Below are positions 911 through 2,503 of a stretch of 8,491 bases of DNA, in pieces (within the stretch, counting starts at the first letter, position 1; the number at the start of each line of letters is the position of its first letter). The notes under the pieces are model-generated. The model was not told the DNA's origin. It was given only the letters and a program-made list of their open reading frames with translations, and did no database searches. The stretch is from the NCBI GenBank assembly GCA_014730235.1, contig WJIO01000433.1:1-8491 (forward strand), given 5' to 3'. This DNA is from Candidatus Poribacteria bacterium. GTDB taxonomy: Bacteria; Poribacteria; DTPJ01; WJIO01. Both the position numbers and the translations under genes were made by a program.

Positions 911-2503
911 ATGGCAAAAAAACAGATTTCATTTGGTGAAAAAGCGAGAAAATCTCTCAAAAATGGGGCTAATAAATTAGCAGATACAGTAAAAATCACA
1001 GTTGGACCCAAAGGAAGAAACGTTGTCCTGGAAAAAAGCTTTGGATCACCTACTGTTACAAACGATGGTGCTACCATTGCCAAAAATATGGAATTGGAAG
1101 ATCCATATGAAAACATCGGCACAAGAATGCTTAAAGAAGCTGCTTCTGAAACCCACGATATTGTAGGTGGTGGAACAGCTACATCAACAGTCATAGCCCA
1201 GCGTATACTGGCTGAAGGTTTAAAAAACCTGGCATCCGGCGCAAATCCTATGATGCTGAAAAAAGGCATAGATAGAGCAACTGATACGGCAATTAAGACA
1301 ATAAAAGAAAAAAGTCAAAAGCTGGAAACTAAAGAGCAGATAATACATGTCGCCACTGTCGCTTCTAACAACGACAGTGAAATAGGTAACCTGATATCCG
1401 AAGCCATGGATAGGGTCGGGCAAGATGGGGTTATTACAGTAGAAGAATCATCAGCCGTTGAAACAGGAATTGATGTAGTAGAAGGAATGCAGTTCGACAA
1501 GGGGTACATATCTCCCCAGATGGTTACCGACAACGAAAATATGGAAGCTGTATTGGACAATCCGTATATATTGATACATGACAAGAAAATCAGTTCTGTG
1601 CAGTCGATACTTCCTATCTTACAGAAAGTATCTCAACTTTCCCGACCTGTATTAATTATCGCCGAGGATGTGGAAGCTGAGGCGTTGTCAACTCTGGTAG
1701 TTAATAAAATCAGAGGTGGATTACAATGCGCCGCAGTAAAAGCCCCAGGATTTGGTGACAGAAGAAAAGAGATGCTCTCGGATCTGGCTGTGTTTACTAA
1801 TGGTCAGGTTATTTCAGAAGAATTGGGCTTCAAGCTTGAAAATGTCGTTGTAGGTATGTTGGGACAGGCAAAGAAAGTCATAATTGATAAAGATACAACC
1901 ACTATAATAGATGGCGCAGGCAAAGAGGATGCAATAAAGGAAAGAGCTGAACAGATAAAAAGACAAATAGAAGAAACCTCATCCGATTATGACAGGGAAA
2001 AATTACAGGAACGACTAGCCCGTCTGGTAAGTGGGGTAGCTGTGGTAAACGTAGGTGCACCTACAGAAACAGCATTGAAAGAAAGAAAAGCAAGGATGGA
2101 AGATGCATTGGCAGCAACCAGAGCTGCAATAGAAGAAGGCATAGTTGCTGGTGGAGGCCTTGCTCTTCTACGGGCTGTAGATGAAATAGATAAACTCGAA
2201 GCTTCTGAGGATGAAGCAACAGGTGTCGAAATACTTAAAAGAGCTTTACAGGAGCCAACCCGTTGTATAATATCAAACGCAGGTGCAGAGGCTTCAGTTA
2301 TAGTAGCCAGAATAATGGAATCCGATGAAAATATGGGTTTCAACGCTCTCACTGGTAAAATTGAAGATCTGGTAAATGCTGGTATTGTTGATCCAGTTAA
2401 AACTGTATGTGCCGCCCTAAAGAGTGCTTCCAGTGTTGCTGGCATGATACTTACTACACATGTCATAATAACAGAAAAGCCAGATGAAGAAGAGGAAGAA
2501 TAA
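911..2503 (+). CDS. groEL: 60-kDa chaperonin (GroEL/Cpn60 family), probably a divergent paralog with altered ATPase site
   Basis: The 530-residue product aligns without gaps to E. coli GroEL numbering through residue 416. It has the equatorial, intermediate and apical domains of a full chaperonin. ATG 911 is preferred over an in-frame TTG at 875 because AGGA (901-904) sits 6 nt upstream and MAKKQISFG is the normal N-terminus. Conserved features are GPKGRN (32-37), Asp52, apical hydrophobic residues (Y199, M204, L234, L237, L259, V263, V264), the intermediate-domain catalytic Asp398, AGGG (413-416) and Asp494 (E. coli 495). The invariant GDGTTT nucleotide loop reads GGGTAT (86-91), so Asp87, a magnesium ligand required for ATP hydrolysis, is Gly, and Thr90 is Ala. 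The C-terminus is PDEEEEE instead of the Gly-Gly-Met tail. No groES gene adjoins it. The family is certain; in vivo ATPase activity is doubtful. Confidence 0.97.

Follow-up and report, generated by a model that had tools for sequence, protein, structure and literature searches.

Orphan groEL gene and flanking sequences

The window, by which we mean the whole stretch of 8,491 nucleotides analyzed here (contig WJIO01000433.1 of the Candidatus Poribacteria assembly GCA_014730235.1), carries on its plus strand an orphan groEL paralog (positions 911–2503), a lone gene amid non-coding stretches whose open reading frame encodes 530 residues matching the profile TIGR02348 and has no adjoining groES. 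The letters AGGA (901–904, plus strand), read directly from the sequence 6 bases 5′ of the ATG, may represent a ribosome-binding site, and a 19-pair hairpin 3′ of the stop codon (2513–2553, no strand assigned) resembles a terminator, with a T-rich tail that the scan scored on the minus strand. Also 5′ of the gene lies a perfect 8-base inverted repeat (TGTCGCAC/GTGCGACA, 849–856 and 894–901, 37 bases apart), which could be an operator or a chance occurrence and was not seen 5′ of the ortholog described below. A promoter scan of the window scored no better than shuffled sequences, an Rfam search of the window returned no family, and the CIRCE heat-shock operator was absent near either groEL copy in both genomes considered here (at least 6 mismatches).

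Family membership and predicted fold

The protein is a full-length group I chaperonin and a homolog of GroEL by both sequence and fold. With the GroEL profile TIGR02348 it scores 764 bits over residues 4–526 (cut-off 582.1), whereas it reaches just 203 and 272 bits with the NCBIfam exception models for chlamydial GroEL2 and GroEL3 (cut-off 600) and at most 97 bits with the group II models for the thermosome and CCT (cut-offs of at least 400). Its AlphaFold model (pLDDT 83.9) is predicted to adopt the fold of a GroEL subunit, is closest to GroES-bound Cpn60 (4v4o, TM 0.91), and places helices 65–85 and 89–108 on either side of the phosphate/metal loop. The closed shape of this model is no evidence for the state of the protein in the cell, and activity lies beyond any model.

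Replacement of Asp87 in a conserved ATP pocket

The loop itself (1166–1183, plus strand), which reads GDGTTT in other GroELs, is encoded in the frame of the ATG at 911 as GGT GGT GGA ACA GCT ACA, i.e. Gly86, Gly87, Gly88, Thr89, Ala90 and Thr91; the GDGTT ATP/Mg motif with its Asp87 is thereby changed to GGGTA. As the original prediction stated, codon 87 (GGT, 1169–1171) puts Gly in the place of Asp, and codon 90 (GCT, 1178–1180) exchanges Thr for Ala; alignment with solved GroELs has no gaps here. The residue table is built on the E. coli GroEL sequence, numbered consistently with PDB alignments and with the literature. The remainder of the pocket is kept, including Thr30, Gly32, Pro33, Asp52 (1064–1066), Gly53, Gly86, Gly88, Thr89, Thr91, Asp398 (2102–2104), the loop Gly414–416 and Asp495, and so are the inter-ring Arg, Glu, Ser and Val (E. 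coli 452, 461, 463 and 464). Of these, Asp52, Asp398, the Gly loop and the inter-ring residues had been listed as retained, and all are present in the alignment; the further claim that the apical substrate-binding hydrophobics are intact holds only in part, given that Tyr203 is replaced by Gln and Phe204 by Met.

To place these changes, we compared 194 other distinct GroELs from the same phylum, many other phyla and viral contigs. All 194 have Asp at position 87 and Thr at position 90, and their residues 86–91 read GDGTTT or, in two cases, GDGTTS. Since both positions are universal in this set, the observation of Gly87 is right and lies far outside chance. A sequence pattern for the Gly87 loop, which requires Ala or Val at 85, Thr or Ala at 90 and Ala or Ser at 92 and which other forms of loss could escape, was positive in the phylum only for the window genome and genome G001 among the GroEL matches listed. 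A wider survey, again sampling rather than taking a census, extended to IMG/VR and to 544 genomes from two further phyla and brought up no chaperonin among the matches checked: the phylum of L037 (395 genomes) gave 13 matches, of which the 10 with loci were inspected, and neither the matches in the phylum of L097 (149 genomes) nor the 59 viral stretches contained one. Only two Gly87 GroELs are known. Divergent orphan GroELs as such are well known, for instance from Myxococcus, cyanobacteria, mycobacteria and Chlamydiae, but in the literature searched we did not come across a natural, near-canonical GroEL that lacks Asp87.

A second Gly87 homolog from another family

The closest relative among 84 genomes of the phylum is the groEL of G001 (L114:2053–3669), which shares its order with the window genome but belongs to another family. 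The two proteins are 65% identical over 530 residues, compared with about 50–61% for the other matches listed, and form sister branches in a tree of 64 GroELs (SH-aLRT 100), with a stem of 0.45 and tips of 0.57 and 0.52 (median tip 0.19). The loop of the G001 ortholog, ETHKLVGGGTTTATL (GGGTTT), likewise has Gly87, here encoded by GGA, but retains Thr90. The original prediction asked whether close homologs share the two substitutions: Gly87 is common to both proteins, and Ala90 is found in the window genome only. Most simply, Asp87 was lost before the two families of the order diverged, and Thr90Ala arose in the window lineage, to which it is private. Glu80 and His82 (codon CAC, 1154–1156, plus strand) are also common to the pair, and each occurs in none of the 194 other GroELs. 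At their C-termini, the window copy ends in EEEEE and the G001 ortholog in GHEHHHHH, both in place of the Gly-Met tail.

Both genomes also possess a standard groES-groEL operon with an intact GDGTTT loop, as well as a single groES that we could find, and in neither is there a groES at the orphan locus. The second groEL that had been proposed as worth looking for in the window genome is thus present, although it ends at a contig edge after 205 residues (its counterpart in G001 lies complete on its contig), and the view of the window protein as a specialized full-length paralog in which the metal-binding Asp has become Gly is borne out.

Divergence and constraint

The Gly87 paralog evolves about three times faster than the normal copy. 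The Gly87 pair differ at 35% of their residues and the normal copies at 13% of their first 204, and over this same stretch, dN is 0.262 for the former and 0.083 for the latter. Yet with pN at 0.225 against pS at 0.761 and with both frames open and free of stop codons, both Gly87 copies are under constraint. Of 123 near-invariant positions (at least 97% conserved in the other GroELs), 12 are lost in the window protein, which retains 111, and 9 in that of G001, five of them in common (54, 87, 95, 498 and 500); elsewhere, the median is 0 and the maximum 7. The ATP pocket enjoys no special protection, since losses in the window protein are no rarer there (3/17) than at other positions (9/106; p 0.37). 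Losses of near-invariant positions lean towards the equatorial domain, but not significantly so (p 0.065 and 0.082).

Putative function

In canonical GroEL, Asp87 binds the phosphate-bridging Mg2+ (PMC5635000; PMC10723157), and Asp52 and Asp398 place the attacking water (PMC10723157). Engineered E. coli GroELs with D87K or D87N are reviewed as binding ATP without ATPase activity, as binding less polypeptide and not releasing it, and as lethal (PMC3268035). These data cover Lys and Asn, and by analogy, Gly87 should act in the same manner; they support the holdase or regulatory-subunit role that was originally envisaged.

The window protein is the second, stand-alone GroEL of its genome, and its lineage would have lost Asp87 before the two families split. 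It presumably has the fold of a GroEL subunit, and since the other pocket residues are kept, ATP binding is probably preserved. With no carboxylate to hold the Mg2+, ATP hydrolysis would be very slow or nil, such that clients would be bound but poorly released, and normal folding would be left to the groES-groEL copy; a paralog that does not cycle would be tolerable because this normal GroEL is present. Its role might be that of a client-holding chaperonin, or that of a slow or dead-site subunit which, together with normal GroEL and the one GroES, forms mixed rings and tunes them. Mixed rings can function with a dead site, given that the change of GDGTT to AAAAA in yeast CCT6 was tolerated with little effect (PMC3268035). 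The substitution, its inheritance, the intact frame and the normal second copy are observed directly; ATP binding without turnover is inferred from the E. coli mutants, as are client holding and ring mixing more generally. Altogether, we give a little better than an even chance to an ATP-binding, hydrolysis-impaired accessory GroEL that acts as a holdase or mixed-ring subunit beside a copy that does the folding. Against it speak Asp52 and Asp398, which an ATPase long out of use could afford to lose, and the common His82, which might be placed to compensate; the number of known sequences (two), the lack of special protection for the pocket and the E. coli data being for Asn and Lys and not for Gly also count against it.

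A bolder version, which we put forward tentatively as possible but somewhat unlikely, is a bacterial family of pseudo-ATPase GroELs that abandoned Asp87, gained His82 and serve as non-cycling tuners of mixed rings or as permanent client traps. If true, they would correspond in bacteria to the CCT subunits of low ATPase activity. Asp87 is the invariant center of ATP turnover in chaperonins, and E. coli does not survive its replacement by Asn or Lys. A GroEL that is kept by selection without it is therefore a natural experiment on whether group I chaperonins can be of use when they do not hydrolyze ATP, and on whether bacterial rings can mix active and inactive subunits in the manner of CCT.

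The main rival to the hydrolysis-impaired reading is a rearranged but working site, in which His82 or Asp52 and Asp398 hold the metal and ATP is still hydrolyzed, with an altered rate or metal preference. Histidine is a poor ligand for Mg2+, however, and no new acidic residue appears among the tabulated pocket positions. Moreover, E. coli D87N is already dead as an ATPase (PMC3268035). Conversely, Asp52 and Asp398 are kept, and His82 is exclusive to the two Gly87 proteins. Simulations of E. coli GroEL show a contact of Asp87 with Asn82 in the t state and with Asp398 in r″ (PMC3053311), so His82 adjoins the gap left by Asp87; it may be a compensation or simply the result of repacking. On balance, we regard a site that still turns over ATP as unlikely.

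Decidedly unlikely, in our view, is a main task other than ATP-driven folding, such as that of a nucleic-acid-binding or lower-oligomer protein, as reported for mycobacterial GroEL1, with Gly87 marking a function that was lost once it had become dispensable. The fast divergence, the changes at Tyr203 and Phe204 and the acidic or His-rich C-termini in place of Gly-Met repeats fit this idea, and such duties have been described for other paralogs (PMC5904260). Most residues of the ATP pocket, the GroES-facing surface and the inter-ring contacts are nevertheless kept.

A redundant copy in relaxed decay, heading for loss, would likewise diverge quickly and explain why both proteins exceed every other sequence in near-invariant losses. 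It is very improbable, as full-length open frames persist in two families, nonsynonymous change is far below synonymous change and the great majority of near-invariant positions are kept.

Finally, an error of sequencing or assembly at codon 87, for which a single A-to-G change from GAT to GGT would suffice and which the original prediction asked to be excluded, can be rejected with near certainty, because the independent ortholog of another family has Gly87 as well, along with the neighboring Glu80 and His82; it is this ortholog that argues for real divergence, and not Thr90Ala, which had been invoked for the purpose and lies outside the shared change.

Comparison with known chaperonins

The window protein resembles E. 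coli GroEL/Cpn60 (TIGR02348; 52% identity) in its full length, its domains, its Asp52, Asp398 and GGG loop and its GroES-facing helices, and differs in Gly87, Ala90 and the absence of the Gly-Met tail and of an adjoining groES. With the D87N and D87K proteins it shares the missing carboxylate; these, however, are laboratory mutants, whereas the window paralog is natural, inherited and accompanied by a normal copy. Duplicates in Myxococcus xanthus and cyanobacteria are similar in that a second groEL lacks groES while a normal copy is kept (PMC5406781; PMC3578752; PMC5904260), but in the portions of these reports considered here, their divergence is mapped to the apical and C-terminal regions and the loss of Asp87 is not mentioned. 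Chlamydial GroEL2 and GroEL3 are divergent orphan paralogs with changed ATP-binding and GroES-binding regions (PMC1892554), yet far more distant from GroEL. CCT6 and other low-ATPase CCT subunits illustrate that mixed rings can tolerate a subunit whose ATP site is dead (PMC3268035), but CCT6 belongs to a eukaryotic group II chaperonin and is distant in sequence.

Genomic neighborhood

A stand-alone duplicate groEL is in itself ordinary, since such copies are frequent in complete genomes: of 4,861 complete genomes in one survey, 884 have duplicate groEL genes and 770 have a groEL that lacks a neighboring groES (PMC5406781). Orphan second GroELs are also common in the phylum. We therefore dismissed the orphan state as a special sign, as several second GroELs with an intact Asp87 had no neighboring groES in the DNA examined; all others examined retain Asp87, so the orphan state and the loss of Asp87 are separate traits. 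The neighbors of the orphan gene differ between the window genome and G001. Conserved synteny was considered because a gene of the Gfo/Idh/MocA type lies upstream in both, and was rejected because the encoded proteins are unlike (blastp E 1.9). Elsewhere, the second groEL of genome G057 (L225 / L007, G057:C208), which has its own groES, is interrupted by one in-frame TGA, perhaps as a pseudogene or through a fault of the assembly.

Downstream of the orphan groEL, a near-palindromic, MITE-like repeat of 140 bases without an Rfam match (2546–2690 and 3574–3713; arms of 68 bases, 78% complementary) occurs in two copies that are 91% identical and bracket a gene for an LPP20-type lipoprotein (2816–3454). 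It is found at about 40 places on many contigs of the window genome (G000), at 87–95% match (40 scored of 888 candidates). Since the repeat beside groEL recurs on dozens of other contigs, WJIO01000433.1 belongs to its genome. Positions 3769–8490 of the window encode a very long surface-type protein with a prealbumin-like and MG2-like N-terminal part followed by Big_2-like repeats, which runs off the end of the contig.
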